A DNA stretch of 64,000 bases, from assembly GCA_019454045.1 (NCBI GenBank), contig SKCR01033432.1, positions 62,001 through 126,000 on the forward strand. The letters run 5' to 3'. The notes below the pieces were generated by a model. That model searched no databases. It had not been told where the DNA came from and worked only from the letters and a program-made list of their open reading frames with translations. This document shows, in pieces, positions 1,601 through 63,616 of this stretch (the stretch's first letter is position 1; every line of letters starts with the position of its first letter). The position numbers and the translations under genes were made by a program. The stretch comes from Zanthoxylum bungeanum. Its lineage: Eukaryota; Streptophyta; Magnoliopsida; Sapindales; Rutaceae.

Positions 1601-1706
1601 CTCTCGTGGTATATAGGATGGAAACCCGGAAGTAAATTTCATAGCCGATTCCGAATGGACGGTAGTATGATATACACTCGGGCCACAACTCCACGTACCA
1701 CTTGAG
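1601..1706 (+). other. ~105-nt structured leader module, copy 1
   Basis: Begins ctctcGTGGTA and ends TACCACttgag. Paired arms visible: GTGGTA (1606-1611) with TACCAC (1696-1701); outer CTC with GAG; CCCGG (1625-1629) with TCGGG (1678-1682); TTCAT (1638-1642) with ATGGA (1655-1659). Other copies: 7286-7391, 24552-24657, 50355-50460 (minus), 62919-63024, and in Copia-1 leaders 31021-31135 (minus) and 55419-55527. Function unknown to me; see findings. Confidence 0.6.
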
Positions 1707-6274: not shown

Positions 6275-6280
6275 TATAAA
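6275..6280 (+). promoter_or_regulatory. TATA box, 5' LTR
   Basis: ccTATAAAagaaacac is conserved with the 3' LTR (TATAAA 23494-23499). It probably sets the transcription start near 6305, giving an R-U5 region of about 2.5 kb. Confidence 0.5.
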
Positions 6281-7285
6281 AGAAACACAATTCCAACCCT
6301 TGAGGACCCTCTCTCATTCACGCATACACAAGAGAGAAAAGCCATAGTTCACGCCTAAACACTTCACGTAATAGCATATTAATCATCACCTTAATAAAGC
6401 CTCTTCACGCAAATAACCCACACGCCTAGCCTACCTCTTCAATTCATTACCAGCTCACCTACGCACCTTCACTTTAAAAGCAAACACCTACACACACAAA
6501 CAAGGCATCAACGCCACATGCCTCCTTTGCCCACATGTACATAGCACTGCCTTTTGCCCCTCCACGCGCATAGCACATCACTCACCTAAAACCCACTCGC
6601 ATAGCAACAGCCTTTCAACGCTCACGACTTCAAGCCCCAAACACTGACAGCACACACACTGCCCACACTCTTACGTTCATCAGCCCACACTCACATTCCG
6701 CTCACAAAGCCACCCAAGACACTCACGCAATTCCCCTTTTTTTGTCGCTACACACTTCACGTTACAGCCTGTATCTCACGTAAACAACTCCTCTTGCCTC
6801 AGCGCACGCCCTACACCTCTTAAATCACTCACTATCTAGCTCTGCATCTCACGCATAAACACCCTAAAACTGCCACACATTACTGGCCAAACTACACCAT
6901 TATATCACTGAAATAGCCCCCTAATAACAGCCCTAAACTGCATAAACAGCGGCCAAAAACTCATAAAAATTGCAGCCATCTTAACCACAAAATAGTAGCT
7001 TCATGCAGCAAAAATAGTGGATAAAAAAATAGCAGTAAAATAGTAGTAAAACAGAGTGGAAATAGTAGCGAGGAAAGACGTGGACCAGTGAACCAGAAAA
7101 GTTGCGGAGTGTTAGCCCTTCCGAAGAACTTGTAACACGCTCCCAAAAGTTGACATAAAAGGTTAGACCTGAGGGAACTTTTCTCATCTATTTTCATTCG
7201 TATTTTAATTATTTATTGATTTGTATTCCATGAGTATTGTGGAATAATGTGTGTTGTGGCCCTGAATGAATGGAAAATGTGTCGT

Positions 7286-7391
7286 CTCTCATGGTATATA
7301 TGATGAACACCCAGACATAAATTCCGTAGCCGAATCCGAATGGACGGTAGTGCGGTCTGTACTTGGGATACAACTCCACGTACCACTTGAG
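7286..7391 (+). other. Structured leader module, copy 2
   Basis: Arms: ATGGTA (7291-7296) with TACCAC (7381-7386), the first pair lost by G-to-A change; outer CTC with GAG; CCCAG (7310-7314) with TTGGG (7363-7367); TCCGT with ATGGA. The CCCAG/TTGGG pair replaces CCCGG/TCGGG of copy 1, a compensatory change. Confidence 0.6.
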
Positions 7392-7500
7392 CAAACAACA
7401 AATATTTTGATTTGTGTTATCTTGTTTATTTATTATCCATATTTTTATTCCGCCATTTAATTTTCATACGATTATTTATTTGTGTATTGATGATATAATG

Positions 7501-8125: not shown

Positions 8126-8805
8126 TTGAAGTCCTATATAGATGTAGGGCATATATTGCATCTCTTTTCTTTCACTCTTATTAGCTATCTTCTTTTGCAT
8201 CGCATCATGACATGTTTATTTTAATATACGGTTACATCTTTAGTTGCCTCTTTACACGTTGCATTTAATTGCCTCTCTTTAATATGCATGCTTGTATATT
8301 ATTGCTTGTTTGCGCTTCCATGATTATCAATGCAATATGTTTGTCAAATTATGCACTTGCTATTATTCTGATTCAATTTTAAGCATGCTTGTAAAATTAT
8401 CATTTGCTTGTATTACCGTATCCATGAATGTAATGTGCTTATGAAATTGTATGCTTGCTGTATTCCGACTTACTTTTATGTATGCAAACTTAGATATAGG
8501 ATATATGCAAACTTAGATATGAGCATTATTTTCATGCATGTGAACTTAGAAATAGAATACTTTTGAGCATATATGTTGAGTAGATTCATTTAATTCATTG
8601 TACAAATCATATCATTACAAGTGGCATAAGTAAAGGACCATTCTGAACCCAACGATTGAGGTCTTCCTTTGCGAGGGGTGAGTACGGCCTTAAATCTTTG
8701 TCCCGGTTCACACCAGGTGGCGACTCCATTTATTCTCTGATTTCGTCCCAACTAGGCCGTGAGCCTAAAACAGCATGCGTCATTCAGTTTCGGTGTCCTA
8801 CAGTC

Positions 8806-8823
8806 TAGCAACTCCACTGGGGA
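8806..8823 (+). other. Primer-binding site (tRNA-Arg), mutated
   Basis: tagcaactccactgggga follows the 5' LTR by 3 nt. The intact form at 63599-63616 is tggcgactccactgggga, the complement of the 3' end of plant tRNA-Arg(ACG) with CCA. Two G-to-A changes here suggest cytosine deamination after insertion. Confidence 0.8.
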
Positions 8824-24551: not shown

Positions 24552-24657
24552 CTCTCGTGGTATATAGGATGGAAACCCAGACGTAAATTCCGTAGTCGAA
24601 TCCGAATGGACGGTAGTGCGGTCTGTACTTGGGATACAACTCCACGTACCACTTGAG
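24552..24657 (+). other. Structured leader module, copy 3
   Basis: GTGGTA (24557-24562) pairs with TACCAC (24647-24652); outer CTC with GAG; CCCAG (24576-24580) with TTGGG (24629-24633); TCCGT with ATGGA. Confidence 0.6.
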
Positions 24658-24765
24658 CAAACAGAACATATTTCGATTTGTGTTATCTTGTTTATTTATT
24701 ATCCATATTTTTATTTCGCCATTTAATTTTCGTACGATTATTTATTTATGTATTGATGATATAAT

Positions 24766-30154: not shown

Positions 30155-31799
30155 GCATTTAATATTAATTCATCGCATATTAAAATCATCTAACAATTTT
30201 GGCATAAAATTAAACATGATGCATGAACAATGATAACGAATTAGAAACCTGGGAGAATTACTATGCCACTGAAATCTATCATCCCACAAGTTAGTGCCGT
30301 CATAGGGTAGGTCAAGTACTCTCATGATAGATTGAGACAATCTCAGTCGATTATTATATGCGGGAATAACTCTTATTCATATATTAAACAACTATCGTTG
30401 GATTTGATCCATGAATTTTATTAATTGTTAATTATTCCTTTGTGAGTGTGACCCGCCGTTTTAGGAATCTTTGACTAAACGAGTGAAGTGCCACCGTACG
30501 GTAGGTCAGTTCACAAGATACATCTAGAATCCCTATCCTCCCGGAATCCAAACCTGATATTGACCCAAAATGAAAACCATCTATAGGGGGACGAAAGTAA
30601 AGCCGTCTCGAGGCACCTTTTGAATCTCACATTTTCGGACTAACAATGGAGATCGCGGGATATACTATCGTATATTCCTCTCCAACTCACTTTTTTTTTA
30701 AAATTAAGGATTCTATTTATAAAATATCTAATAATTTAATTTAACTAGTGTGAATAATTTATGGCAGTTAAATCATAACTCTTATTTACACTAGTACATT
30801 ATTAGTGACCTAACCAATTTTAACTCTTAAAAATTAGATGACAAATTTCCACTAGTCGCTACTAATTGTATTACTCAATTAAAGTAATTTAATTTGAGTG
30901 GTATGAATGGCCTATTATATTTTAACTTTTAAAATACTAGAAAACTAATTGATTAAAAATTTTAGAATCCTAAAAAGGTCAAGATTTACATTAAACTATT
31001 TAATTAATCTTAGTGCGTTATAAAATCCAATGGCACGTGGAATTGAATCCCGAGTGCAGACTATATTACCATCCATTCGGATTCGGCAATGGAATTTAAG
31101 TTTGGGTTTCCATCCTATATAACAATGGAATTTTTTATGCACAAATTAAGTCTAATATATTAGAATTCTAATTTTAAACCTTAAAACAAATTAATCCAAT
31201 TAATTTTTTTCATGCATATTATATTCTAATTTAAATATTTTTAATCATATAAAATCATATTTCAAGTCTATAATGATAATGCATCTAAAGCATGTTATGG
31301 CATGTGAAATGCAAGAGTAGACACCCTAAGTTATATGACATGTTATTCAAAGAAATCGAATTAAATATACATATAATATAAAAAAATATTTTGTATTAAT
31401 CAGGCTATTATTTTTCCTATACTATTCTAATTAGTACAAAAAATACCCAAGGCATCCCTTGGTCTTCAAATCACGCTCCAAAGGCTCATTTTGCGACTTC
31501 AGTGCTTCAAAATTACAACAATTGAAAATTTACATTGGAAAATAAAATTACAACAATTGTTAACAATGGTCTTATATCCCCAAAAAAAACCAACATTAAA
31601 ATAAGAGCCGGAAAAATTTACGACCAATGTAAAATCTATTCATCACATGAGAAACAATAACCATTTATCATATGAATATTATTTTGTGCATACTCAACTA
31701 AACATGCAAATCAATATTTATAACTCATATAAACATATTAAAAACAGTAACTTTAAATGAAAAAAAGAAGGGTTAAGAACACTTTTCAACCTTACTCTT
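30155..31799 (-). other. Copia-1 untranslated leader
   Basis: AT-rich leader between primer site and gag, matching 54745-56413 in reverse. It holds the structured module (31021-31135) and a long hairpin GGGATATAC/GTATATTCC (30657-30678). No ORF. Confidence 0.7.
31021..31135 (-). other. Structured leader module, Copia-1 copy (minus)
   Basis: On the minus strand, arm ATTCCATTGTTA faces TGCCATTGGATTT. Inside are CCCAA facing TCGGG (one mismatch) and TCCATT facing AATGGA. The central GCCGAATCCGAATGGA is nearly identical to the Ogre LTR copies. Confidence 0.6.
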
Positions 31800-34264: not shown

Positions 34265-34276
34265 AATCTCCCACTT
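34265..34276 (-). other. Polypurine tract of young Copia-2
   Basis: Minus-strand ccaagtgggaga(t) abuts the 3' LTR start. Confidence 0.82.
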
Positions 34277-34279
34277 GGC

Positions 34280-35850
34280 CTATAGCCAGTCACTCAAGCA
34301 TCTAATACCTGAACTATGTATATGTCGTTCAAACACATGCGGATAAACAGCCTTCGTCAGCGGATCTGCAATGTTGTTATCTGATGCGACCTTCTCGACC
34401 TTTACATCGCCACGATGTATAATCTCCCGAATCAGATGGTTACGCCGAAGAACATGCTTGGATCGTTGATGAGACCTTGGTTCCTTAGCTTGTGCTATAG
34501 CCCCGTTATTGTCACAATACAATGGAACGGGCTCAGAAGCTAACGGAACTACTCCTAATCCGATTAGGAATTTTCGGATCCAAACTGCCTCCTTTGCTGC
34601 TTCCGACGCAGCGATATACTCCGCTTCTGTTGTTGAATCGGCAACAGTATCTTGCTTGGAAGATTTCCAGCTCACTGCTCCGTTATTCAAACAAAAAATA
34701 TACCCCGATTGCGATTTGAAGTCGTCCTTGTCGGTTTGGAAACTTGCATCGGCATACCCAGACACCACAAGTTCTCTTTCTCCGTAAATTAAGAAAGCAT
34801 CCTTAGTTCGTCTAAGATACTTAAGGATATTCTTAACTGCCATCCAGTGACCTTCACCTGGATCGGCCTGATAGCGACTGCACATGCTCAAAGCATATGA
34901 CACATCAGGTCGTGTACATATCATGGCATACATGATCGATCCGACTGCCGAGCCGAACGGTATCCGACTCATGTTATCTCTCTCTTCTTGAGTCTTAGGA
35001 CACATATCCTTAGACAGAGAGATACCACGTAACATTGGCATCAATCCCTTCTTGGATTGATCCATGCTGAATCGCTTCAACACTTTGTCAATATATGTAC
35101 TCTGGGAGAGTCCAAGCAGCTTTCTAGATCTATCCCGGTAGATCTTTATTCCCAGAATAAAGGCTGCTTCTCCTAGATCTTTCATGGAGAATTTTAATGA
35201 AAGCCAAGCTTTCACCGACGTTAGCATGGGAATGTCATTGCCTATAAGCAATACATCGTCGACATAAAGGACAATAAAAGTCAGTGCTCTCCCACTAACC
35301 TTCTTGTATACACAAGGGTCATCTTCGTTTTGCACAAAATCATATTCTTTTATGATCTCATCAAAACGCTGATTCCATGACCATGATGCTTGCTTCAATC
35401 CATAAATGGATCGATTTAACTTACAAAACTTGTTTGCAAGTCTAGGTACGATAAAACCGTCAGGCTGTTGCATATAAACATCCTCCAAAAGGTTTCCGTT
35501 AAGGAAAGCGGTTTTAACGTCCATCTGCCATATCTCGTAATCGAAATATGCAGCTATTGCAAGCATTATCCGAATGGATTTAATCATGGCAACGGGTTAG
35601 AAATTTTCGTCATAATCAATACCATATTGTTGACGATACCTCTTTGCTACAAGCCTAGCTTTGTACGTTTGCACGTTGCCATCCACGTCGGTCTTCTTCT
35701 TGAAGATCCATCTGCATCCAATAGGCTTTACACCTTCTGGTGCATCAACCAGTGTCCAAACTTGGTTGGCATACATGGAATCCATCTCGGACTTCATGGC
35801 TTCTTGCCATAAAGTGGAATCAATATTTTGTATGCTTCCTCATACGTAGC
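34280..35850 (-). pseudogene. Copia-2 reverse transcriptase and RNase H (one stop)
   Basis: This RT and RNase H would convert element RNA to double-stranded cDNA in cytoplasmic particles. From 35797 the frame reads NQVWTLVDAPEGVKPIGCRW, meets TAA (35597-35599) where the family has Ser in ETFSPVAM, and continues uninterrupted for 435 codons to 34280. In that part: QMDVKTAFLNG (residues 21-31), LKQASWSWNQRF (64-75), catalytic YVDD (108-111), CTRPDVSYAL (224-233), RNase H GYADASF (277-283), STTEAEYIAASEA (318-330), YCDNNGAI (357-364) and HVLRRNHLIREI. It ends ...LSDWL just before the polypurine tract. All catalytic residues I know of are present, so one substitution separates it from a full RT-RNase H. 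Confidence 0.9.
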
Positions 35851-35894
35851 CGGTTCATTTTCCTCAATAAGATTAATATCTACATGAGGCGAGA

Positions 35895-37000
35895 TCAGGA
35901 ACCCATACCTCTCAGGTACTGTCCTGACTCTCTCCGACCTACGCGGTCCTGTGTATATGAAGATTGTGGTACAGACTCATCCCGGATGGTCTGTTCATGT
36001 TCCGTCGTTGATTCATTGCCAGGAACAGTATCACTACGATTTTCATCGAGCTCTACTTTCCTCCCACTTACCACTGCATCTAGAAATTCCTTCTCAAGGA
36101 AAAATGCATGTAGAGCAACAAATACTTTATTCTCTTGTGGGTGATAGAAGTAATATCCTTTGGTTTCCCTAGGATATCCCACGAAAAGCATTTATCTGAT
36201 TTGGGTTCTAGTTTGGTTCCTTCCAAACGTTTAACATATGCCCAGCATCCCCAAATCTTCAGGAAAGAGAAACCTGGTTTCCTTCCTGTCCATATCTCAT
36301 ATGGAGTCTGTTCAACAGACTTCGACGGAACCTTATTCAAAATAAGTACTACATTGTTTAATGCGTATCCCCAGAAGGATATTGGTAGCTCAGTCCGACT
36401 CATCATCGACCTTACCATGTCTAACAAGGTACGGTTTCTCCGTTCAGACACACACCGTTTAATTGCGGTGTTCCAGGAGGAGTCCACTGTGAAAGAATAC
36501 CATATTCTTTCAAGTAATCTTGAAACTCATAACTTAAGTATTCGCCACCACGGTCCGACCGCAATGCCTAATACTCTTGCCAGTTTGTTTTTTCTACTTC
36601 GTGTCGAAACTCTTTGAATTTCTCAAAGGTTTCCGACTTGTGTCTCATAAGATACACATAACCATAACGAGATGCATCATCCGTAAAGGTTACGAAGTAA
36701 AGATATCCACCTCTAGCCTGGCTAGACATGGGCCCACATACGTCACTCTATGAACGAGGGCTAACAGTTCTGTGGCTCGTTCACCTTTACCGCTAAAGAT
36801 GATTTAGGCATTTTGCCTAAAAGACAAGATTCGCAGACATCATATGAATTAGGATCAAATCCGTCCAAGTACCCACTCTTCGAAAGTGTGGATATGCGAG
36901 TCTTGTTGATGTGTGCCTAGACGATACCACATGCCACATGTAAGCTTCATCTTTTGATTACTTACTCCTTTTGAGCCTTTTGTTTGTCATTTTACGTTTA
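35895..37000 (-). pseudogene. Copia-2 integrase with frameshifts
   Basis: Minus strand, from the zinc-binding start near 36940 (degraded) through ARGGYLYFVTF (about 36690-36720), ASRYGYVYLMRHKSETF (36625-36680), LRSDRGGEY (36541-36568) and [17 protein letters not shown] (36400-36450) to LILNKVPSKSVEQTPYEIW. The frame changes near 36190, after which FVGYPRETKGYYFYHP continues to 35895. So the D-D-E core is recognisable but not in one frame. It lies between protease and RT as expected for Ty1/copia. Confidence 0.82.
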
Positions 37001-37269
37001 GGAGATTCATTTATATTCAAAATATAAGACCATTATTTGCAACAAGAGTGCAAATTTCTGCATCATTTTTATATAATACACCCAGTGTTTCTAAATAAAA
37101 AGTGTACCCATACTGGGAATAAAGATAAAGATATGATATTCCTAGTTAAACTAGGTATATATAACAGTTCAAAAGTTTAAGTACATGCCCCGAGGGCAGT
37201 TCCAAAAAACAAAAGTCCCACAGCCAAAACAGCAACTGGTGTTCCGTTTCCGACTCGTAGATCAACTCC

Positions 37270-38233
37270 CCTGAAGCTAGCATCCTGCTATTCTGCAGAT
37301 CTGCAAATCAGTAAATATATGCAGCATACCAGAATCAAAATCCAATTTTTAAGACTAGAAGTAGTCATATTTATTTCAATAACAAACATACCAGAGGCTA
37401 GAGCCTTGCCTGCCTTGATATCCTCCCTCTGTCCTTTGCCCACTCGGCAGTCACGTTTCCAGTGACCCTTTTGCCACATTTGAGGCAGACATCTTGAGAC
37501 TTGTCCCTTGGCTTCCCAGAAGCTTTTGTCAACTTGCCTTTACCCTTGTTCTTATGCTTCCTCTTCTTCACCCTCCAATTGCCTTGGCCCAGCCCTTGGC
37601 GCCTGAGAGGTCGATGCATGGTGCGCCTCGCGCTTGCCCCCTTTTTGGAGTTCTTTCTCAGACTCCTTCAACATGGATAACAGCTCTCCAAAGTGTCATC
37701 CGTGTCCATCAACTTGTAGTTGATTATGATTTGTCTCCAAGTATCAGGAAGTGACTGTAAGAGCATGTCTATAGTCAGCTCAGCCTCCAAGACTATTCCC
37801 AACTTGCCCAACTCATCATATCGGCGATCATTTGAGTCCCGTGGGCCTCAACTGATGCGCCTTCAGTCATTCGGGTGCGGAAGAGTTTCTTCACCAACTC
37901 AACCTCTCCATCCCATCGCTTGTTGGTGCGGTGGAGATCATACAGTCAAGCCATCATATGTTAGGATCCAAGTCCCTATTCTGGTGACGAAAGTGCTGAG
38001 TCATCGAAACCAACATAACAGACTGAGCTGTGTCACAATCCTCGCTGTGAGTTTTCCATAACTCCAGCTCAAGTGGCTCAGTGGGTCTAGGCGGGAGAGG
38101 TGTCTGTATAGTGTACAGTAACCTCTCAGCCCCAGGACAATCCTCAGGTTCATTTCCCCCAGTCAGCGAAGTTTATGCCCTTGAAGACATTATCACCCAT
38201 GATGATGTCGCGGACATTTCCTTTGCTTCCCAT
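37270..38233 (-). pseudogene. Copia-2 gag and protease, broken
   Basis: Gag probably starts at ATG 38233 (MGSKGNVRDIIMGDNVFKG) and soon loses frame. Later parts include LWKTHSEDCDTAQSVML near 38000-38060, a Lys-rich stretch, and the CCHC knuckle split over two frames: CLKCGK (about 37475-37495) and GHWKRDC (about 37445-37465). The protease start SSLKNWIL follows near 37340, then the DTG region is out of frame. Gag packages RNA; the aspartic protease would mature the polyprotein. Confidence 0.75.
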
Positions 38234-40419
38234 CTCAACTACGACAGTCTAACTATATCTAGTGACGATAAAATGGGTACAGTCAAACTGTTACAAAAAA
38301 TAACAATGTATTAGTCCAACTAATTTTAATAAATAGACGAAATAAATTTGAATGACGCGTAAGGCAAAGTATCTGAACGAAATGCAAATTCACATACTAG
38401 CCTCCCACTATTTTCATCAAGTCTCTAACCCTTTGTTGAGAACTCGGGAAATCCTATTTCCTAGTGGCTAGGATCCCGTTAAATAACACACAACCTTGAC
38501 TTTGGCACAAGTGTATGCTACTTAACTAGGTAGATCTCACAGATCAATTGGATCCAATCCAATTCCTAGATCCGGTTAGGTGGACATCCAAGTCCTAAAC
38601 ATATTACTTATGCCAATGTATCTAATACATTTTCCTAACATATCCTCCAAATCATCTAGGCCTTGGCTTTGGCACAACAAACCTAATGATTCCAGTTAAG
38701 CGGACCCATTGACAGGAAAGTTTCGTAATCAATGTCGTTGGACAAGAAGTGATCTTGACTTTGGCCAACAAATCATAACTGGACAAGACAACCGATGTGG
38801 AACAAAACTCTCATGATTCAAGTACATCCATAATTGACAAGGTCTTGACTTTGGCCAACAAACCAATGCCATTTGGATCTTGAACAAGAATCATTCAATG
38901 GAAGGATAATTGCTTAATATAGTTGAGGGATTTTTGCGTAATTGGCAACCAATTTATTATCTTTGTTAGGTCTCATCATCATACACCCTTAAGCATGCTT
39001 CTAAAACATCATAAAGCACGTAAAGTAAATTAATAGTGATATGCGGATGGATATATAAACAACTTGTTCCTAGAACAAATCACTCCCTTTCCTCTCCCCG
39101 CTAGCACTATTCTACTTCTACCCAATTACATAATACAATAAGAGAAAACCTCATTTACATTGAGGGGAATTAGGTGAGAAGAGAATACAAAGAGATAAAA
39201 GAGATAAGGCTGGACACGCAGGTCTAATTTATAAATTCTAAATTTACAATAATTCCTAGAATTACCCTTTCCCTTCTAATATCCATCCGATATACACTAT
39301 TCTTCATCACATACATATTATATTCAATCAATACATGCTATACAACCAATCTAATCCAATTAATTAGTCTTTGTTTAAGTGATCATCCAATGTTCAAACA
39401 ATGGTTTTGATTTTGCGCGAGTTCAACTCGTTTGAGAATAATTACATAAGGTACGAATTCAAGAATTATATCGAACTACTTGTTAAATCCAATTTAAGTC
39501 GTATTCAATACTAATTCAATTCATTTAATTCCAAATTAAATGTTTACACTTTTAATGTGCTTTTAAAGACTTAGATTCTAAATCTAATCTAATTGGGTCT
39601 CAAAGCCCAACATAACATCCAATGTTAGTTTAATTAAGGCCGATGGGCTTTCAATTGATTTATAAAGGCTTGGGCTTTGGTCAATGTGGGTCAAACCCAA
39701 TTACCAAAACCAAATAAGGAATCACCCTTAAATGCCATGAAATCAATTTCAAGCCCATAAGGCCAATTAAACATAAAAGCCCATTTTACCATATTTGGAC
39801 TTAATGGAGTGATTTAGGCCCAAATTGGATCCAATCCTTTTGGCCCAAATCTACTTGCCCAACCAAGCCCATTATGCCCAAATATAATAATTCAACAGCC
39901 CATTTTACAATTAAGCCCATTAATTAAATTCAATATTCCAAATTTTAAAATCCATTAATTAAAGTGTAATCCATGAGATTAATACATTAAACCAAATATT
40001 TCCAAAACACCAATTTAATTCAGCAATCATCCTTGTTCAAAACACATGTCCAACATTATATTTGAACAAAAATCAAGTCCTTTTACATGTCTATTGCATT
40101 CGGCTAAGTGAGAATTTTTATGTCGATTTGTTTTTCAATCCGATTGAATCACTAATCTACGTCCCGTATACGTTTTAAGTCATCCAATGATCTTGTACAC
40201 AAAAAATTCCAACACAATCCCATGGTTACACCCATTCGGCCAAGGCTAATTTTGGGGAAAAATCATCCAATACATTTTTCTCAAAATTGATTCCATATAT
40301 ATCATTTTATATACATGTAAGCATACTCATTCATCAAATTTCACAAGAACATGCTTCAATCAATTTTACCCAAATTACCCTAATGTATTTCATGCTTAAA
40401 CATGGCTCCATGATACCAT
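38234..40419 (-). other. Copia-2 untranslated leader
   Basis: 2.2 kb without coding sequence, matching 11696-14040 reversed. It carries four cttgactttggcc-type repeats (near 38490, 38650, 38750, 38845) and the gggcccaa-rich stretch (39640-39910). A leader this long before gag is unusual for Ty1/copia but is shared by all copies here. Confidence 0.7.
40408..40419 (-). other. Primer-binding site of young Copia-2
   Basis: Minus-strand atggtatcatgg follows the LTR end GAAACCAACA. Matches the first 8 nt of the initiator tRNA-Met site tggtatca, then diverges. Confidence 0.75.
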
Positions 40420-42342
40420 TGTTGGTTTCTATTATTACTCCCAAGGAAAGTATAAGCACATGAAATACAACAAATGAATATATAATAAACTTGAAGCATG
40501 GCGGAATCATACTTACAAAGCTTTTGTGATGAAGAAGATGAACAAAAGGTTGAAGCTCCAAGTCCCTTTATGGTTCGGCCAAGAGGAGAAAATGAGTGGA
40601 AGCTCCAAGCTTTGTGTATTCCAAGCTCTAAGGATTGTTTCCCTATCACCTCCTTTGATCCTTGAATGTGCTAGCAAATGGAGAAGCAAAAACAATTTTT
40701 TTTCTTTTTCCTTGTGAAGGTCACGGCAATTAGAGAGAGAGAGGGAGGAGTTTTTTTTGTTTTCTTTGTTTTTCTTTCTTAAGAAAATGAAAACAATACA
40801 AAAGATTTGGTATATGCCTTTTCCAAAAAGTCAAATTCAACTTTCCCTCCAAAAAGCCATTAAATGGCCTCAAACCACTAACATCATGAATAGTGACAAT
40901 GGTCACTCAATAAAGTGACTTGTTGACATCCATCACTAGTCATGTCAAGTGATGTGACTTTCGCGATGTGACTTGCGGGCCCCATTCGTTTCAAAATACG
41001 AATGTGTCCGCAAACACTTTCGGGCTCGGTTTCGCTAATTCCGAATTAACGAATTTCCGTCGCGACATAAATTAAATAATTATGCCTAGCGAAATCACTA
41101 TTCATGTCGCTAACTAATTAATTCTAAATTAATTCGTTTGCCCGAATAAAATCCGATTTTATTCCGCGTCGAAATCTAATTTCGTTTAATATATCGAATA
41201 TATTATTTTATCGATTAATTCCAAATTAATCGTTCTCTCTCTAAATTAGGCATTTTATCCAAGATAAAGTTTCTCCGTAATTAATCCAAGATTAATAAAG
41301 GTCGAATCAAATATCATAGGTGAATCTTCAGGAAGCGACCCTGAGATCTCCGGATATGTTGGCAGTAAATACGGCCGTCGGATAATCCGAACACGTACGT
41401 ACCTTGTACTACGTTTTAACCGACTTACAAGACAAGGTTGGCTTCTAGCAAAGCGCGATGCCTACCCAATTCTCCAGAAATATTCTTATTGGAATATTAG
41501 ATCTTTATCAGCGTAGTTATACCGTAGTATTGCGTACATCGATCCAGTATCGGACGATCACATGTTAGGCCGGGGCTGGAAACGTGTCTGCCCCGTACGA
41601 AACATATATCGGACATCAAGCAACTAGTCTCTTGAAATCGGGCAATCCTGACCTAGTCATATTGACCCGACGATTGCAACCTTTTACAGAGCACTAGTTC
41701 TGTATCCTCCTGCGCGATCATCAACTCCATATGTCTGAAGTGACACTTCCATCTTGACATCACACCCAGTACACTACGATTCCTGATAAACCCAAAAGTG
41801 GTGTACACAGACCGGTTAAAGCCCCCAACCACCAAAACCAAAGTTTAACCGATTGTCGCAAGTACTAGCGATGCAAGTCTCAAGTTAAGACCATATACAC
41901 CTACCCTGATGCGGCCTCCCATAGACACGTAGACATACTACCAATGGGATTCCGCGGGGTCTATCCAGAGCGAAGCTGTTTTCCGTACCATCGGTAAAAC
42001 ACAACCTCCTGTCGCACTTGCATAAATACTTAAATATATGAGAACTATGCTGTTGTGCCCCTCACAACGTGCACAAGTGGAATACTAGTCTATTCCCGCA
42101 TTATCGATGTCTGATCTCGATAATACTCCGACTAGGATATTTAATGATTAAACCTTTATGTATTGATACTGTCCTCATATCATCTCAATACGGAACTAAT
42201 CATATGGACTTTCGCCATTTATATATCAAAGTAAATAAATTACAAAACGGTAAAAGGCAATTTCATTGTCACATAGTTAATTTTGTACAATAATACAATA
42301 TCATTTACAAAACAGTGACGCTATGGGTCATAATGTCTAACA
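40420..42342 (-). mobile_element. 5' LTR of young Copia-2 (right)
   Basis: Minus-strand TGTTAGACATTATGACCC at 42342 to GAAACCAACA at 40420; 1923 bp. Compared by eye with 32344-34264 the differences are mainly single-base insertions or deletions plus few substitutions. Confidence 0.92.
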
Positions 42343-46677: not shown

Positions 46678-48079
46678 CTATTCTTTCTTCTCTTTGTTAT
46701 TGTCCAAGAAGGTTTTCCAGGAATCTATGCCTTGCTCCATTACATCTTCACTACTGTTGTTCCATATCTCATTGCAAAAGGATTGGTGGTTGAGGGTCCG
46801 GAGTACAAGGCTTTCAGGCAGGCCAGAGTTGATCATGTAAATAGGTGGTGGAACAAAGTGGTAGTTGGGTATGGGGTTTTTGTGTGTGTTGGGTTGTTCT
46901 TTTTCTGGGTCGGGTATCTTATGAACGTCAATGAGGTTTTGGATCTCATGACTAAGGCGGGTGCAGTTGTCGGTGTCATGGCCTTTTTCTTGATGGAAGT
47001 TACAGTACGAGTTTAGGTTGAGGAGAGGTGGCACATGGTTTGGAAATGGTCTAGGTTCTAAAGGTTTTAGGAGTCCTTATATTTTCATCTTTTCAAACAC
47101 CTTTGACAAAGGTTTACCAAGATTGGAGAATCGCATGTTTATAACAGTCGCTAATCATGGAGGTCATCCTTCTCAGCTTGTTATAAATAGAGGGCTTGGT
47201 GCCCTTAATGATCACCTTGATCTGGTCGTTCTCCGAGGGCCGAGTCTGAATTTTCAAGAGTTGGTTTCTCCAGCGATCTACATAATCCTTGAAGCTCTCT
47301 TCCAGCATCTGTTTGGTATTCTCCAAGTCATAGAGCGACGAGTCAATCTCCAAGTCTGTGACATACTGATTCAGAAATGCTTCTCTTAATGCCCTCCAAT
47401 CATCGACCTTTATCTCCAGGTCGTGGTACCATACTACGGGCGCCCCTCTAGTGACATCCCGAACATCTTCTGAACTTGACGCTTTGACAGACCCACTTAA
47501 CTCATCATAGAAACATACAATCAAAGATTGACCCTCGAATCCCCGTTCCCGTTGAACTTGGCTATGTCAGACATCTTGATATGAAGGTAGCTGCTCTTCG
47601 AAATTCTTCGCATCGTAGCCTAGAAAACCTTCATGTTTACCCTTCATCTTGCGGGTAACTGACTCTACCTGATCCCTGAGTTTTTGCAATTCTGCTTGAG
47701 ACTTGGTTACCCTTCCCGCGGCATACTCAGCCATGTCATCATCAAAAACAAGGATCTCATCACTCATCATTTTCAGAGGCTTTTCATGCATGACATTCTC
47801 AGAGCTTCATGCCCCTCCCGCACGGGGCACTGCCATATTGGCCACAACGATGGTAAAAGCTTGCATCTGCTCGGCAATCTTAGTAAGATTATTCTCTAGC
47901 TGATCCATGTGAGAACCATAATTATCTAACTCTCTCATATTCTCTAATTGCTTTTTGACGAGTCTTTCTTCTTCTCTAACCCAACGGGTATCTATGGCGG
48001 CTTTAAAACTATGAGTTAGCATGGTACATGTATGCGTGCGATGCATGAAATATATAAAATGCATGAGTTGATCCAACAA
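46678..48079 (-). pseudogene. Ogre-like gag, four frames
   Basis: Gag forms the particle. Minus-strand order: HMDQLENNLTKIAEQMQAF (48079-47807), an acidic/coiled segment with KSQAELQKLRDQVESVTRKM (47791-47567), the gag core with DDWRALREAFLNQYV and KDYVDRWRNQLLKIQTR (47524-47114), and a C-terminal part with YCNFHQEKGHDTDNC and RLSHEIQNLIDVHKIPDPEK (47034-46678). Frameshifts separate the four blocks. This is the most complete Ogre-type gag in the window and shows what the plus-strand copy at 19741 has lost. Confidence 0.82.
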
Positions 48080-49659: not shown

Positions 49660-50230
49660 CGACCCGGCGCGACAAAACATCGTGGTAAAGGTATTATTTT
49701 GGCTTTTCTCTCAAATAGAGGACCATTAGCTCAACATGATTAGGCCCTGCGCACGAGATATAAATACGCAAATCAATAAAGCAATAACAAGCGAAAAGTA
49801 AATGACATAATAATAAAAGAGTGCGACCAAGGCTAACGTCTATATGGGACCTCGTATGCCTGATTGAACGTATTTCACATTCGACCAAGTATACTTCATC
49901 CGGCGCGGTAAAACATTGTGGTAAAGGTAGCCTTTTAGGCATTTCCCTCAAATGAAGGACCTTTAATCCTACGTAGTTAATCCATGCGCACTAGATAACC
50001 ATATAGGAATAAACAAAGCAATAATATGCAAAAAGTAAATAACATAACAATAAATGAGATGCGACCGAGGCCGACATCTATATGGGATCTCATATGCCCG
50101 ATTGAATGTATTTCAGATTCAATCAAGTATACTTCATCTAAGGCGGCAAAACGTCGTGGTAAAGGTAGTCTTTAGGCATTTATCTCGAATAGATGACCTT
50201 TAATCCATCATGATTAGCCCATGCGCACTA
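49660..50230 (-). repeat. LTR-internal tandem units, minus strand (3)
   Basis: Repeats of gcggcaaaacgtcgtggtaaag-type text near 49660, 49895 and 50140 (one unit in each), each followed by the AGGC/GCCT hairpin and ending gcgcac. Average spacing about 240 bp, longer than in the plus-strand LTRs. Confidence 0.7.
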
Positions 50231-50354
50231 GATAACTATGCATGAATAAACAAACAAGCCAATATCACATGGAAAATAAATAATAGAATAATAAAACACG
50301 AACAATGAATGAACAGAAAATTAATAACAAAATAAAACACATGATTGAAAGTTT

Positions 50355-50460
50355 TCTCAGGGGTACGTGGAGTTGTATCCCAAGTACATACCATACTACC
50401 GTCCATTCAGATTCGGCTACGGAATTTATGTCTTGGTTTCCATATGATATACCGCAAGAG
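50355..50460 (-). other. Structured leader module, copy 4 (minus)
   Basis: On the minus strand: GCGGTA faces TACCCC (one mismatch), CTC faces GAG, CCAAG faces CTTGG, TCCGT faces ATGGA. CCAAG/CTTGG is a third version of the inner helix. Confidence 0.55.
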
Positions 50461-52413: not shown

Positions 52414-54728
52414 TATTGGGATGTATGCCCTAGAGCTACATGTGATGTAAACGGTTTCATGTGTTTTGAAATAAAAATGATGCATTATTTATTTATCAAA
52501 TAGTTTGTTTAATTTTTGCATATTATATATCTTCTTAAATACCCTAGATTACTTATGTATCTTCAGAGTTAGTGTATGAGTATCATATGCAAGAGGATTT
52601 AAGTCTGAAGTTAGTAATTTTAAATAGTCCATAGAGAGCAAACAAAGCAGGTACTTTATTTGCGGTTTATCTATAGCTGCGGTCCATTCTATATTTGTAT
52701 GGCGATCTTGATCCGGATCGTCCATGTAGAGACATGAGAATGGAGGCACCTTGTATGATGCGATCATATAGGACTAGACCCAGATAGAAATGACATTCTT
52801 ATAATATCCGTTAAGCAAATAAAGTCATTTCAATCTACTTGATGGTCATATATGGATTGATCTTAATCCTGAGTGCACTACGAACTCTTGCATGGCAGGC
52901 TGTGTCCTTTGATTTACAAAGGTAAGGTTGGTGTAGCAGTCCCGACCAATAGCTACGTACTTTGGGGGCAGAGTTTTCTTTGTAGCTGGGAACGTTTTAC
53001 ATAGAAATGGAGTTCACTCCTTCTTGCGAGAAGTAGATGAGTATCGTTCTTAAGGGTTGATTCGGTACTTGAACGATTTGAGCGCTCAAGTTTTTCTATT
53101 ACGAATAGAATTAAAATTCATAATAGTTATGAATAAATCGTTCATTAGAGAATCAATAAAACTTAATGTAAAAATAAATAGAGGGGTATAACGGACATTA
53201 TGACCCGACTCTAATTACGAGTTACTCATGAAAGGTCAATTCATATGTACTATATCGGTGGACACCGACTTGGTTCGGCTTAATATTTCATCTACGCTAA
53301 CAAGAGTGTAACTTCGGGTTTTTAGTGGAATAACCCGGAGTTAATAATTCGAAATATTTAATTAAGAGCTTAATTAATATTTCGAGATTATTGGAGCTCG
53401 GAACCGTAGGTCCATTTGGTCCCCGCGCTAGTTGGATTTACTATAGCGGATTTAATGTACTTGGATAGTCCAATTATATGCTCACATATGTATAAGTATA
53501 TTTATATGATAGTAATATTATTTGTCACACTTGAAACTATATATAAAAGTTAATGTATGGTATTAATAATTATATGATAATTATTAAATAAAAATATTGA
53601 ATTATATATATGATATAATTTAATAAGGCTAAGATTGTAATTTCTATATTATGGGTTTTGGAAACACTTGATTTAATTTTGGAAGTAATGACTTTCAAAT
53701 ATTAATCATATATTTAATTTGTAACATATGTTGGCTTTATGGAAAGTAAATATTGTTGTTACAAAATTAATGAAAGAATATATGCCATGACCGAATTCCT
53801 AGTGCATAGGGGAATATTTTGATTGTTTTTGAAACAATAAATCCTTGGCTTTGGTTTAATAGTTACACATTTTTGAAAGGTATAACTAATATTTTTGTAA
53901 CATATAATTCCTTTATGGATATTAATATTTCATGTTACAAAATTAATTAAGAAAATTCCTACCTTGGCCGATTATTACACTAATATGGAGGGGATTAGTT
54001 GATTTATTTTGGAATAATTTGACCTAAGTATAAAAAGAATTTTGACTTTCTTTTTACTCTCTCTCTCATTCTAGCAACCCTAGGAATCTTCTTCCTCTTC
54101 TCTATGCTCTCAAAAGTTGATAAACACCATTGAATAACAAGAAGAAGAAAAACAAAATCAAGTGTGCGATTGAATCTCTAAATCGTTTAGGGATTTATTT
54201 TGTGAGTGTAGCCCACACTACCCTCCGTTGGTAACGAGACATAGCACGAAAGACTTTGTGGTGACGAACAAATCATCCTCTTCCTCTATTCATCAACGTC
54301 ACGGCAGTGAGGCTTTATTTCACCTCATTACCGCACCTTTGCCTCTTGAATGGGGGCTCGTTTCATTTCGTTTTAATTCGGGATTTTGGAAAACACCTTG
54401 GGGATGTTTTGGGGCTGAGTTGGGACTGTTTTGGAGTGATAAAATCATACCTATATCATCACAGTAGTTCACGCAAATAGTGGACTGATTTGTGTGCAGT
54501 TCGGTTGTGTAACGGGTGTAAAACAGTCTATTAATTTACTACAGTTCGGGGGCTGCTCTGGGACTGTTTTGGGGGCATTCCGGGGCTGAAATCTTGTCCG
54601 AAACAGAAGCAAAATTTCAGTATACCCACTGGTTATATTCGGCCAAAGGAAGGGCAAAGCAGAAAAAATTTTCAAGTTTGATCCGTGAGCCTAATCGCTT
54701 CCGCTGCGCGAGGAAAACGTTTCCTACA
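52414..54728 (+). mobile_element. Copia-1 5' LTR, plus strand
   Basis: Starts TATTGGGATG (family TGTTGGAATA, so TG became TA) and ends TTTCCTACA; 2315 bp. Contains ctctctctcattctagc near 54057, then a C/T-poor gggactgtttt-rich segment (54400-54600). Confidence 0.82.
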
Positions 54729-54730
54729 AT

Positions 54731-54743
54731 TGGCATCAAGAGC
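54731..54743 (+). other. Copia-1 primer-binding site
   Basis: tggcatcaagagc, two nt after the LTR; variant of tggtatcagagc (initiator tRNA-Met type). Confidence 0.75.
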
Positions 54744-56413
54744 GAGGTTGAAAAGTGTTCTTAACCCTCACTTTTTTCATTTAAAGTTTCTGTTTTTAAT
54801 ATATTTATATGAGTTATAAATATGATATGCATGTTTAGATGAGTGGGACATTGTGATATTCATATGATGAATGTTTTTATTATTTCATATGATGAATAGA
54901 TTTTACATTGGTCGTAAATTTTTCCGGATCTTATTTTTGTAGTTGGTTTTTTTTTTGGGTTGGGACCATAAGGTCATTCTTTACATTTGTTGTAATTTTA
55001 TTTTTCAATGTAAAATTTCAATTTTTGTAATATGGAGCACCGAAGACACAAAAGGAGCCAACACCACTTTGGAGCGGGATTTGAAGACAAATGGATGCCT
55101 TGGTGAATCTTATGTACTAATTAGATTAGTATAGGAAAAATAAGAGCCCGGTCAATACAAAATATTTTTTTTGTTGTATGTATGTTTATTTCAAATTATT
55201 TGAATAACATGTCATATAGCTTTGGGTGCCCACTCATGCATTTTTTCATGCCATAACATGTCATAGATGCATTATCATTATAGACATAAAATAATGATTT
55301 TATGTAATTTAAATGTTTAAATTAGAATATGATATGCAAGAAATCCATTAATTAGATTAGTTGGATTAATGGTTTAAAATTTGAATTCTTATATATTAGG
55401 CTTAATTGGTGCATAATAAATTCCATTGGTATATAGGATGGAAACCCGGACATAAATTACATAGCCGATTTCGAATGGACGGAAATATGGTCTGCACTCG
55501 GGATACATTCCACGTACCATTGGATTTTAAGACGCACCAAGATTTATTAAAATGTTTAATTAAAATTTTGGCTATTTAGAATCGATGATTTTTAAACTTT
55601 TAAGTGTCTAGTATTTTAAAAGTTAAAATGTCATAGCTCACTTATACCACTCTAATTAAATTAGTTTAATGGAGTATATTTGTTAGTAGAGACCAATGAA
55701 ATATTAGTGACACAATTTTAATAGTTAAAATTGATTAGCTCACTTATGACAAACTAGTGTAAATAATAATTATGTTTTAGCCACCATAAGTTTATCCACA
55801 CTAGTTAATATAAAATATAAGATATTTTATATAGAAACCTTATATTTAAAATAGTGAGTCGGAGAGGGATATACGACAGTATATCCCGCGATCTCCGTTG
55901 TTAGTCCAAAAATGTGAGATTCAAAAGACGCCTCGAGACGGCTTTATTTTTGTCCCCTTACGGATGGTGTCCATTTTGGGTCAATATCAGGTTTGGGTTC
56001 CGAGAGGATAAGGATTCTAGATGTATCTTGTGAACTGACCTACCCTAGGGCGGCACTTCACTCGTTAAGTCCAAGAATCCCGAAACGACCGGTTACACTC
56101 ACAAAGGAATAATTAACTGTTAATAAAATTCCTTGATCAAATAAAACGGTAGTTGTTTAATATAGGAATAAGAGTTATTCCAGCATATATTAAATTGACT
56201 GAGATTGTCTCGATCTATCATGCAAGTACTTGACCTACACTATGGTGAAACTTACTTGTAGGATGATAGATTTCTGTGGCATAGTAATTCTCTTAGGTTT
56301 CTAATTCATTATTCATGGTTCATGTATCATGTTTAATTTTATGCCAAAATTATTTGATGATTTTAATATGCGATGAATGAATGTTGAATACATGTTTATT
56401 TTATTTTTCAGCC
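54744..56413 (+). other. Copia-1 untranslated leader, plus strand
   Basis: No ORF of note. It contains the structured module (55419-55527), a nine-pair hairpin GGGATATAC-gaca-GTATATCCC (55866-55887) and the sequence around cgcctcgagacggc. All three are conserved in the minus-strand copy. Confidence 0.7.
55419..55527 (+). other. Structured leader module, Copia-1 copy (plus)
   Basis: AATTCCATTGGTA (55419-55431) faces TACCATTGGATTT (55515-55527): 11 of 13 positions pair. Inside, CCCGG (55445-55449) faces TCGGG (55498-55502). The outer arm differs in sequence from the Ogre copies but stays paired. Confidence 0.62.
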
Positions 56414-57240
56414 ATGGTTTCTCCAATTATTTCCATACTCTCAAACGATAAGTTAACGAGAGAAAACTATGTTAAGTGGAAAAGTAACAAGAACGCTATC
56501 CTGGTATGTGAATACCTTAATTTTTTCCTGACGGAGCAACGTCCTCCCGAGCCAGCCAGAAATACTGGCCAAGTTGTGCGCGATACCTATCAAAAATGGA
56601 TCGCAGCAAATGAGAAAGCCCGTTGCTACTTGCTAGTAGAGATGTCTGAGGTTCTTGCTGCAAATCATGAACCTATGGCTCTAGCATCTCAGATGATGGA
56701 TTCATTGCAGGGCATGTTTGGGCAGCCTTCGGAGCGTCAATGCCATGAGGCCATGGTCTCAGCTATGACTGCTAAGATGAAGGATATGACATTAGTCCGA
56801 GAGCATGTTTTAAGGATGATGACCTATCTCAACACTGTTGAAACCCATGGAGCTCGTATTGACGAGCGTAGCCAGGTGACCATGATTATGGAAACTCTTC
56901 CAAAGAGTTTCCTGTAGTTTAAAAGCAACTATGTTATGAACAAGTTGTCTTTTACTTTAACCCAACTGCTTATGAGCTTACCCATTACGAGTCCATGCTT
57001 GTGGATCCTAGTAAGTCTAGTGCAGAGGAAAATGTTGCCGAGTCTTCTAAATCTGTAAAGAATAAGAAGAAAAGCATTGGAAAGGCTAAGGGAAAGCCCA
57101 TAAAGAAGAAGAACAATAAAAGGCTCCAAGGATGCCAAGCCCAAAGGAAAATGTTTCCACTGCGACAAGAATGGGCATTGGAAAAGGAACTGTCCTAATT
57201 ACCTTGCTGAGCTGAAGGAGTAAAAGGAAACAGGTAAATA
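56414..57240 (+). pseudogene. Copia-1 gag
   Basis: The start chosen at 56414 (MVSPIISILSNDKLTRENYV) matches the minus-strand copy; an upstream in-frame ATG at 56381 lies in the leader. The 168-codon block to 56917 contains WIAANEKARCYLLVEMSE and ASQMMDSLQGMFGQPSERQC, typical of Ty1/copia gag. A TAG at 56915 stops it. After frame changes the Lys-rich KNKKKSIGKAKGKP (57055-57100) and the CCHC knuckle CFHCDKNGHWKRNC (about 57149-57190) follow. One stop and one frameshift break the frame. Confidence 0.82.
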
Positions 57241-61619: not shown

Positions 61620-63595
61620 TGTAGGCATTGCATTTTTGCATATCAGCCCGATGATGAGTCTCGTAATGAGGCAACTACTTCTTTAGTCATGCAAGTCGCG
61701 AAAACAGATGTTGGAAGGGTAAAGTTGGAAATTAGAATTTTGTTGGATTTTATCTGAGTTGTTTAGCTTCGGTTGCTTGTTGGATTTCCGTTTTAAAGCT
61801 TACCTAGGGCCCAAAATCCAAACCAAACCGAAACCAAACCCAAAACACCTAAGTCAACCCAAGTCAACCCAAGTCAAACCAAGCCCACACCCAAGAGGAG
61901 AGATTCACGCCCATATAGCTTTATTTAGGTAATATGCATTATCACAGTTTAAATCATATAATAAATCCTATCCTTAAATAGAATCAAATCAAATCAAATC
62001 CAATCAAGCAAATCAATCCAATCCAAGAGCGTCTCTTATGGAAAGATGTCACTCAATAAAAATCCTCTCTCCATCTAAACCTCCTCTCCTTTGCCTATAA
62101 AAAAGAGCCTTCACCCTCATTCACAAGCTAGCACACATCCCCCTCTCAAGCACGTCCAAGCATCCCCAATAGCCTCCATCACATGCCCAAGCATCCCTCA
62201 ATAGCCTCCATTGCCGCATTCCTAAAGAAAGAATCTCTCCAATTGCCGCATCCCCCTTCCTCACCAACACCCTTTCACGCCCAAGCCTGAAACACACTCT
62301 TCCATAGCCGACTTTCAACCACCATTCACAGCCCTAAAACACCCTAAAATAAACCTTATTTCCAGCCCTTAAGTTCCGCAAAAAGACCCCCCAAAGCAGC
62401 TCCAAATCAGCGCCCAAGTCAGCCCTGAAAACGGCTTCACTGCACTAGTGAACTGCCGAGTTTAGTCTTCTGTTCTGGTCAGTTTCCTTGCGTCCTTAGC
62501 CCATCAAAACCGTCCTAAAACCATCTTAAAACCATCCCAAGAATCCCCAAAAAGTTTCCCCAAAAAATCTTTACAAACGCACCTCCCGAGACCACCAAAA
62601 TCACCCAAAACAATCCACTAAATGCCCAAAACAGTGACCTGAAATGCAGCAGCAAAACAGCAGTAAAACGGACTTAAAACAGCAGCCCGAGCATCAAAAC
62701 AACGAGAAAAAATAGTAAGCAAACGAATCGGAAAAGTATCGGATCATTCGCCCTTCCACGGACGTGTAACGCCCTTTCTTGAGACGACAAAAGAGGTTAG
62801 ACCTGAGTGCACCCTTTTACTTATCTCTTTTCGTTTTTTTTATTTATTTTTGATATACAATTGCATGAGAGTCGTTTGAGGCATGATTTGATTGTTGGAT
62901 GAGCGGGATATGTGTTCCCTTTTGTGGTATATCGGATGGAAACCCGGACGTAAATTCCATAGCCGATTCTGAATGGACGGTAGTATGGTCTGCACTCGGG
63001 ATACAATGCCACGTACCACTTAAGATACATGTATCTCGTCTCATCCAAATTTGTACTCGAGCATGATGTAGTTCTAGGTTTTTATTTATTATTTAAGCTT
63101 GTCTTAACTTAGTTTCGTTATTTAATTTCAAAGCATGATTATGTTTCTTCTTTTATGCATGATATTTAATTTAGTTTATATTTATGTTTAAGTAATTATT
63201 TGTTTGCGTTGGTTTGATGGCTTAGTATATTCAATGTGTGATATTACGTGTTTATTGTTTAAAGACTTATTTTCAAGCATGCGAACTTAGATTAGGAGTT
63301 AATTAGATGGAGGCATCTTAGATCTAGGTGACACTTGGACATGATTATTGATTAGATGCGGTTGGTTTATTGCATGAATTATATCATCACAATGACATAA
63401 GTAAGGGACCATTCCGAACCCAACGGTTTGAGGTTTTCCCTTGCGAGGGGTGAGTGCGGCCTTAAACCTTTGTCCCGGTTCACACCGGGTGGCGACTCCA
63501 TTATTCTCCGGTTTATTACCCCGCGGACTATCCCGTACGCTCAACTAGGCCCCGAGTCTAGAACATCATGCGTCGCCCAAGTTCTGTTGTCTACA
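61620..63595 (+). mobile_element. Short (1976-bp) Ogre-like 5' LTR
   Basis: Starts TGTAGGCATTGC and ends TTGTCTACA. It has TATAAA (62096-62101), C/A-rich leader (62130-62650), structured module (62919-63024) and U5 block (63400-63590), but no tandem units between module and U5. That absence explains most of its ~1-kb shortfall. U5 hairpins intact: CCCGG/CCGGG (63474-63489), GGCGAC (63491-63496) with GTCGCC (63572-63577). Confidence 0.87.
62919..63024 (+). other. Structured leader module, copy 5
   Basis: GTGGTA (62924-62929) pairs with TACCAC (63014-63019); outer CTT with AAG, where other copies have CTC with GAG; CCCGG with TCGGG; TCCAT with ATGGA. Confidence 0.62.
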
Positions 63596-63598
63596 GTC

Positions 63599-63616
63599 TG
63601 GCGACTCCACTGGGGA
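63599..63616 (+). other. Primer-binding site (tRNA-Arg), intact
   Basis: tggcgactccactgggga, three nt after the LTR. It is fully complementary to the last 18 nt (with CCA) of plant tRNA-Arg(ACG) as I remember it, the primer known for Ogre elements. Confidence 0.85.

Follow-up and report, generated by a model that had tools for sequence, protein, structure and literature searches.

A conserved hairpin module common to Ty3-type and Ty1-type LTR retrotransposons of Zanthoxylum bungeanum, possibly acting in their RNA

The 64,000-nucleotide stretch of Zanthoxylum bungeanum DNA analysed here (hereafter the window) raises the question of why LTR retrotransposons of two superfamilies should carry the same noncoding module, and of what this module could be doing in their RNA. 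The genome assembly to which the window belongs comprises 3.96 Gb in 51,709 contigs. The original prediction described seven copies of ~105 nt, five in Ogre-like LTRs and two in Copia-1 leaders, and inspection of the sequence confirmed all of them, with their coordinates and strands (Table 1). A comparison of the window with itself (BLASTN, E up to 0.01) shows the module to be the only stretch that Copia-1 and Ogre-like elements have in common, in alignments of 90-94 nt with 80-90% identity (E = 6e-16 to 6e-29); in the same comparison the Copia-1 copies align with each other across kilobases. A covariance model built from the seven copies recovers them at 108-128 bits, a match by construction, and finds no further sense-strand copy in the 64-kb window; its three remaining matches there are weak and mirror three of the seven on the reverse strand. 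The module was claimed to lie always in sense orientation past the transcription start; the orientation is confirmed for all copies and, as to position, those examined are downstream of a TATA box. Its middle part, GCCGAWUCCGAAUGGA, had been called almost invariant and is indeed nearly so, with one base off in each of the copies at 24552, 50355, 62919 and 55419.

Table 1. Module copies and associated features of their host elements in the window (CM: score with the covariance model of the seven copies)
Feature	Position	Strand	Basis
Module copy, Ogre-like LTR	1601..1706	+	sequence; CM 125.5 bits
Module copy, Ogre-like LTR (5791-8802)	7286..7391	+	sequence; CM 123.5 bits
Module copy, Ogre-like LTR (22982-26059; 87% identical to 5791-8802)	24552..24657	+	sequence; CM 128.4 bits
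Module copy, Ogre-like LTR	50355..50460	-	sequence; CM 108.9 bits
Module copy, Ogre-like LTR (start 61620, TATA ~62096, LTR end ~63595)	62919..63024	+	CM 124.7 bits
Module copy, Copia-1 leader, between primer-binding site and gag	55419..55527	+	CM 115.5 bits
Module copy, second Copia-1 leader	31021..31135	-	sequence; CM 108.5 bits
TATA box of Ogre-like LTR 5791-8802	6275..6282	+	sequence only
Primer-binding site after Ogre-like LTR	8803..8822	+	comparison with 63596-63615
Ty3-type gag (PF03732), downstream of the 50355 LTR, same strand	47117..47566	-	assigned to the same element by order
TATA box of Copia-1 LTR	54029..54037	+	from sequence alone
Putative Copia-1 primer-binding site, directly after CTACA	54729..54743	+	read from sequence
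Copia-1 gag (PF14223, E = 3.3e-11)	56414..56914	+	profile match

The label Ogre is that of the original prediction; the features seen here comprise LTR ends, a PF03732 gag and a primer site of the TGGCGACTCC type. The LTR at 5791-8802 has the ends TGTAG...CTACA, is followed by a TGGCGACTCC-type primer site, and contains TATAAAAG ~480 nt from its start and the module 1,011 nt past TATAAAA. The LTR at 22982-26059 is an 87% copy of it, and both hold the module. In the LTR at 61620-63595, whose ends were taken from the sequence (the window holds no partner LTR), the distance from TATAAAA to the module at 62919 is 823 nt. Among 87 Ogre-like entries, which include two second readings of one place and many loci too short for a TATA box or a primer site, a TATA match lies 356-1,920 nt upstream of the module in 40 and a primer-site match 524-1,750 nt downstream of it in 22. 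Other features of these LTRs may be recorded here. A primer-site-like TGGCGACTCCAT is found inside them, ~85-110 nt upstream of the primer site (8717-8729, 63489-63501 and about 2725), within a strongly conserved block, and tandem or repeated units of ~110-240 nt (GCGCATGGGCTTAGTA...) lie 3' of the module (7679-7997, 49664-50254, 1905-2199). The window also contains an array of ~61 copies of the 10-bp unit GTGGACTATC, at positions 22213-22806.

In the Copia-1 element on the forward strand, the copy at 55419 lies ~1.4 kb past TATAAAAAG, 690 nt past the primer-binding site and ~0.9 kb before gag. The putative primer site is presumably of the tRNA-Met type in a diverged form; a search of the window for the primer-site pattern (up to two mismatches) gave six matches with one or two mismatches, which is chance level, and the site at 54729 is absent among them. 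Ahead of gag stands ttttatttttcag, which resembles a 3' splice site, has its last base at 56411 and is similar in the two copies. A leader intron ending at this CAG would be plausible, but no clear 5' site was seen and the idea does not fit the gag-only family described below. The leader also contains, at 55855-55905 (and 30351-30696 on the minus strand), a near-perfect hairpin around GGGATATAC/GTATATCCC. It opens a noncoding stretch of 346 nt, over which the two Copia-1 copies show 89% identity, and it may form another RNA domain of the leader. A copia element (32344-42342) with 96% identical LTRs and ACAAC at either flank is nested in the second Copia-1 copy and splits it.

In the whole genome, the exact 19-nt core of the module occurs 33,925 + 33,788 = 67,713 times, and the reversed core pattern does not occur at all. 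The contexts of the module were studied in 79 of 100 listed core places, picked by the exact 19-nt core and from the first contigs only. These loci provided 83 modules of distinct sequence, 78 of them with the exact core, exact repeats (the module plus 40 nt on each side) being counted once. According to their 700-nt flanks in the same orientation, 80 of the 83 are Ogre-like, one (L165) is Copia-1 and two (L158 and L172) belong to a third group; none stands alone outside these three contexts. Two or three modules are present in 17 of 72 loci, 15 of which hold a same-strand pair 0.9-1.5 kb apart. Paired modules occur for instance in L129, L137, L147, L149, L152, L168, L170, L171 and L173, and the end arms often differ within a pair.

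The third group is a gag-only Copia, covered by the pieces L200, L172 and L199 (G000:C20:110195-116007). Its LTRs, of at least 1.1 kb, are 98.6-98.9% identical (L200:796-1908 against L172:3514 to L199:608), and the 5' LTR is directly followed by TGGTATCAGAGCC, a possible tRNA-Met primer site, with an in-phase gag ATG ~40 nt further on. In L172, a copia gag frame of 587 residues (PF14223, E = 1e-21), open at the start of the locus, ends at 1765, and the module lies at 1959, ~190 nt past the gag stop, between gag and the 3' LTR. No pol frame was found in the fetched pieces, and the 6-kb piece L199 is free of frames of at least 110 residues. A 78% relative, L158, shows an identical order. A copia-type gag is confirmed for both Copia-1 and the gag-only family (PF14223, E = 3.3e-11 and 1e-21). 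The module is integral to the LTRs of Ogre-like elements, to the leaders of Copia-1 and to the spacer between gag and the 3' LTR of the gag-only Copia, always in sense orientation. Since this third family carries it downstream of gag, it is not tied to the leader, and a fixed leader function is contradicted.

Further relatives were found by comparing the translated frames of the module with 5.8 billion proteins, which gave 41 distinct proteins from contigs of 501-1,075 bp. Among the matches listed, eight of the 41 (P0009-P0016) have flanks that match the window and are Ogre-like; the end arms of P0005 are Copia-like, and the remaining 32 have a flank of their own, as judged by reading (group X). 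Among the matches listed, some X alignments extend beyond the module (35-60% identity), and X could therefore represent a distant Ogre-like relative, not a new superfamily. In viral contigs, two module patterns gave no stretch and a third gave a single one, unrelated-looking on reading; relatives of the Copia-1 gag were searched for in the same contigs and none was found. At least 119 stretches match the module pattern in bacterial genomes and were taken as chance.

Conservation is higher in the module than around it. In 820 random Ogre-like pairs, the mean identity is 0.87 in the module against 0.50 in each 200-nt flank, and the module exceeds both flanks in 98% of the pairs; outside the 19-nt core used for selection, its identity is 0.85 (1000 Ogre-like pairs). 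An excess is also found in the gag-only Copia pair (98/105 in the module against 155/191 upstream and 104/142 downstream) and between L165 and the copy at 55419 (94/103 against flanks of 155/189 and 141/188), and it is small between the two Copia-1 copies of the window (96/109 against ~84-86%). Copia and Ogre-like modules are 73-84% identical to each other, and Ogre-like modules 77-94% identical among themselves, so that the likeness across superfamilies almost equals that within the Ogre-like group. Such identity in noncoding sequence bears out the claim that one module is common to Ty3-type and Ty1-type elements. Across superfamilies, it points to transfer and not to common descent, and the module has very probably been exchanged between them. 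The exchange would have taken place by recombination, probably through template switching between transcripts. In the tree of the core, the Copia-1 and gag-only Copia rows fall among the Ogre-like rows; a single Copia clade is not rejected (p-AU = 0.36), which is compatible with one or several transfers in either direction.

The original prediction had named a captured short repeat as the alternative, namely a mobile SINE or MITE inserted into the leaders. This origin would account for the complementary ends, the length of ~105 bp and the presence of the module in different superfamilies. Nevertheless, each of the 83 sampled copies belongs to one of three recurrent contexts and none stands alone, and the lack of dispersed copies in unrelated flanks within this sample disfavours a freely mobile repeat. 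The module also has no fixed terminal sequence, as the end arms vary by family, and it shows covariation and constraint. Its capture as a mobile repeat therefore seems very improbable.

The structure of the module was studied in an alignment of 91 distinct rows, with the single-sequence MFE fold of copy 1601 as reference. This fold is an unbranched hairpin of ~105 nt made up of an end stem of variable sequence (P1), GGA/UCC, P2 and an apical stem with internal loops; the copy at 55419 has a 7-bp outer extension of the stem (TTGGTGC/GCACCAA). As a null model, each column was simulated along the FastTree tree using that column's own substitution count (600 simulations). The mean APC covariation of the structure is 8.68, against 0.01 (sd 0.96) in the simulations, paired cells amount to 92.3% against 83.6% (sd 2.3%), and six structural pairs are found among the 15 top scores against 0.1 expected; for each of these values, 0 of the 600 simulations was as high. 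Slid structures have mean APC scores of -0.8 to 1.4, and the pair is kept in seven of ten same-branch double substitutions, against 0-2 in each of six slid controls. Under the tree null, seven of the top 13 pairs, among 6,903, are structural, and no single pair reaches E = 0.05 in the 91 rows. In the window copies alone, paired cells represent 87.5% against 31-42% for the slid structure. The absence of covariation in a larger alignment had been named as grounds to discard the original interpretation; the 91 rows show the covariation of the structure as a whole, and the outcome does not speak against that interpretation. It can be held with high confidence that the pairing of the hairpin, considered as a whole, is maintained by compensating changes beyond what shared ancestry explains.

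The individual pairs illustrate these changes. Pair 41-68 is G-C in 47 rows, A-U in 37, G-U in 2, A-C in 4 and otherwise in 1, and the three of its cells that were counted genome-wide by exact matches are G-C (25,557), A-U (14,732) and G-U (1,727). Pair 28-79 has 48 G-C, 33 A-U, 2 G-U, 7 A-C and 1 other, and pair 39-70 has 50 C-G, 26 U-A, 10 U-G, 4 mismatches and 1 gap. Pair 7-100 is weaker, with 51 U-A and 18 C-G but 17 C-A. The fold energies of the seven window copies are modestly better than those of shuffled sequences (z = -0.8 to -2.9), and for some copies (31021, L147:2754) a different fold is predicted. With respect to the paired variants that had been proposed, the replacement of CUC/GAG by CUU/AAG in the copy at 62919 and that of CCCGG/UCGGG by CCCAG/UUGGG are true double changes in register; the third, CCAAG/CUUGG at 50355, is shifted by one and was not retained. 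The end arms do pair in both families as proposed, but their co-change between Ogre and Copia did not survive scrutiny: when the arms of the copies at 24552 and 55419 are swapped, two of the seven pairs are impossible either way, so that the swap is without cost and the co-change is by itself no evidence. Group X has a third end-stem sequence, mostly complementary in back-translation, with impossible combinations in 20 of 210 pair cells. When the 48 sequences are taken together, 42 of 322 end-arm cells are impossible, against a mean of 84.8 after shuffling (0 of 2,000 shuffles as low). The X 5' arms are impossible with Ogre 3' arms in 1,531 of 2,730 pair cells; the Ogre 5' arms combined with X 3' arms give 691 of 2,912, against 17 of 91 for their own arms, and are thus nearly as compatible. 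Part of the X end-arm signal may be relatedness.

A maintained hairpin could in principle be formed by the sense RNA or, alternatively, by the DNA as a cruciform. The sense strand is the more stable in six of the seven window copies by folding energy. Over the 30 pairs of the 91 rows there are 389 G-U against 60 A-C cells, a count inflated because the fold had been predicted from the sense strand, with G-U accepted as a pair. Four mostly G-U pairs supply 300 of the 389; elsewhere there are 89 G-U against 59 A-C cells, with more G-U in 13 pairs, more A-C in eight and equal numbers in five. A DNA-level element, such as a transcription-factor or cruciform site around the TATA-like TATATAGG, would agree with this small excess outside the four pairs, with the nearly invariant TATAT at positions 10-14 and with the location of the module in the LTR of Ogre-like elements. 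Yet the four mostly G-U pairs would read A-C on the opposite strand, where six of the seven window copies fold less well; separate TATA matches are found 0.36-1.9 kb upstream where a match exists (40 of 87 entries), and the Copia copies lie outside LTRs. A role of the module at the DNA level thus looks improbable, and it is favoured, though not proven, that the folding molecule is the sense RNA, which we regard as likely.

What such an RNA hairpin would do is a matter of weighing several readings. The original prediction had proposed a packaging, translation or cleavage RNA element; the maintained structure is supported, the sense RNA being favoured, and the cleavage part is unlikely. Indeed, no Rfam family matches the 64-kb window at gathering threshold, and a permissive search around 55350-55600 has a best E of 1.4 (13.9 bits, where the threshold is 50), which is chance level. 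This agrees with the earlier statement that the module is no known ribozyme or riboswitch, and a tRNA was likewise rejected. A miRNA-type precursor was ruled out as well, as there is no long uninterrupted duplex. Plant LTR elements can carry ribozymes, as retrozymes illustrate in the part of their description available (PMC4918200), but the lack of any window match to Rfam at gathering score, together with the unbranched fold, makes cleavage unlikely, and a self-cleaving ribozyme or processing site is hardly credible here.

Another reading is that of a translation element. The module contains a mini-ORF with its start at positions 18-20 and its stop at 33-35, 3 nt before the apical stem, and this could be a take-off site for ribosome shunting or reinitiation. 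Both codons are retained, and no gap separates them, in 84 of 91 rows and in all seven window copies, and a short uORF closing ahead of a stable stem corresponds to the shunt layout of pararetroviruses as given in the accessible portion of one study (PMC5902531). Nevertheless, the module of the gag-only Copia lies ~190 nt past the gag stop, many ATGs precede the module in the Copia-1 leader, the mini-ORF itself is inside P1 and P2, and the apical stem is short. Its letters may also be conserved for the structure, and a translational function appears distinctly unlikely.

The module could also be a packaging or dimerisation signal. In that case, Gag would bind the hairpin and select full-length RNA, and elements sharing the signal could use each other's particles. 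The module is conserved and present once per element in Copia-1 and the gag-only Copia, and the latter makes Gag but must borrow RT; in Copia-1, its place after the primer site and before the possible leader splice acceptor would mark unspliced RNA. Yet the Gags of the module-bearing elements are of unrelated types (PF14223 and PF03732), and the Ogre-like copies lie within the LTR. A mild argument comes from a plant pararetrovirus test in which, in the part of the report at hand, ribosome-shunt parts could be exchanged between viruses and the packaging region bound by the coat protein could not (PMC5902531). A packaging signal is unlikely, although more credible than the readings discussed so far.

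The reading that we tentatively prefer is that a host RNA-binding factor, and not Gag or RT, would read the hairpin, because superfamilies with unrelated Gags share it, in three positions, always in sense orientation and with its structure maintained. The hairpin would then act post-transcriptionally on the full-length RNA, with nuclear export or RNA stability as its most likely point of action, in the manner of the CTE/RTE of mammalian retroelements or the ENE of plant elements. As a whole, a maintained, position-independent post-transcriptional hairpin may be the best explanation of the data, if with somewhat less than even confidence, and by analogy with other retroelements a post-transcriptional role through a host factor can be given a similarly guarded standing. 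Export or stability specifically is a more doubtful proposition. Most speculative is the complete picture of a tradeable RNA passport, in which a hairpin for transport or stability, read by the host, would have been exchanged by recombination among Ty3 and Ty1 elements, both autonomous-type and gag-only, and reinstalled at different positions, as the first plant example; this picture is rather unlikely as a whole. If it were true, one genome would now contain the core of such a passport in tens of thousands of copies, and other sequence records would contain it with a further flank type.

Whatever its function, the module shows noncoding exchange between superfamilies with Gags of different families. 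A covarying and abundant hairpin is also an affinity bait for a host factor and a target for structure probing, and its covariance model can be used for annotating plant genomes. No description of the module was found in the open-access literature (titles and abstract starts), and within the scope of Rfam and this literature it may be undescribed so far.

Several known systems share features with the module. Cassandra elements carry 5S RNA in their LTRs as a conserved RNA module of plant LTRs; the likeness lies in such a module being carried in plant LTRs, and the difference in that the present one matches no Rfam family, 5S included. Retrozyme LTRs with hammerhead ribozymes are similar in being structured RNA inside plant LTRs, according to the available text (PMC4918200); the module differs from them by its lack of an Rfam ribozyme match and its unbranched fold. 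Pararetrovirus shunt leaders, as far as the source at our disposal describes them (PMC5902531), share with the module the short uORF that closes just before a stem. In contrast, the shunt uORF precedes a large bypassed stem with a landing site, and the mini-ORF of the module is inside the hairpin; the 5'-proximal leader position, with a landing site upstream of the main ORF, is not found in the gag-only Copia, whose module comes after gag.

By host and place, the ENE is the known element that comes nearest. In the accessible part of its description, the ENE of Evade/Copia93 is a stem-loop cis-element of the retrotransposon RNA in the spacer between the ORF and the 3' LTR, where the gag-only Copia has its module, and ENE motifs are associated with LTR elements in plants (PMC12501189). 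Such a 3' UTR placement close to the poly(A) end fits the gag-only Copia and not Copia-1. Clamping of poly(A) by U-rich internal loops is essential to an ENE, and the module lacks such loops: the longest U run is 2 in 35, 3 in 43, 4 in 12 and 5 in one of the 91 modules. The identity of the module with an ENE was rejected, as U-rich internal-loop tracts flanked by G-C pairs are absent (longest run 2-3 in 78 of 91).

A further comparison is with the RNA transport elements of mammalian retroelements. CTE/RTE elements work from different positions in sense orientation, and the module has this feature, being placed in the LTR, in the leader and after gag, all in sense. The differences are that it has no Rfam relation, that its host is a plant and that its transport function is putative; we know of no plant receptor of the CTE type. 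According to a review of the host factors of plant LTR elements, in the part available, direct studies of RNA export have not been done in plants (PMC12786077). The CTE, RTE and MTE of mammalian retroelements are, in the available parts of the sources, structured RNAs read by host export factors, and one of them was gained through recombination from another retrovirus lineage (PMC11379458, PMC12786077): in macaque HML-2, a region derived from HML-8 with CTE activity was acquired by recombination and replaced the RcRE export system (PMC11379458).
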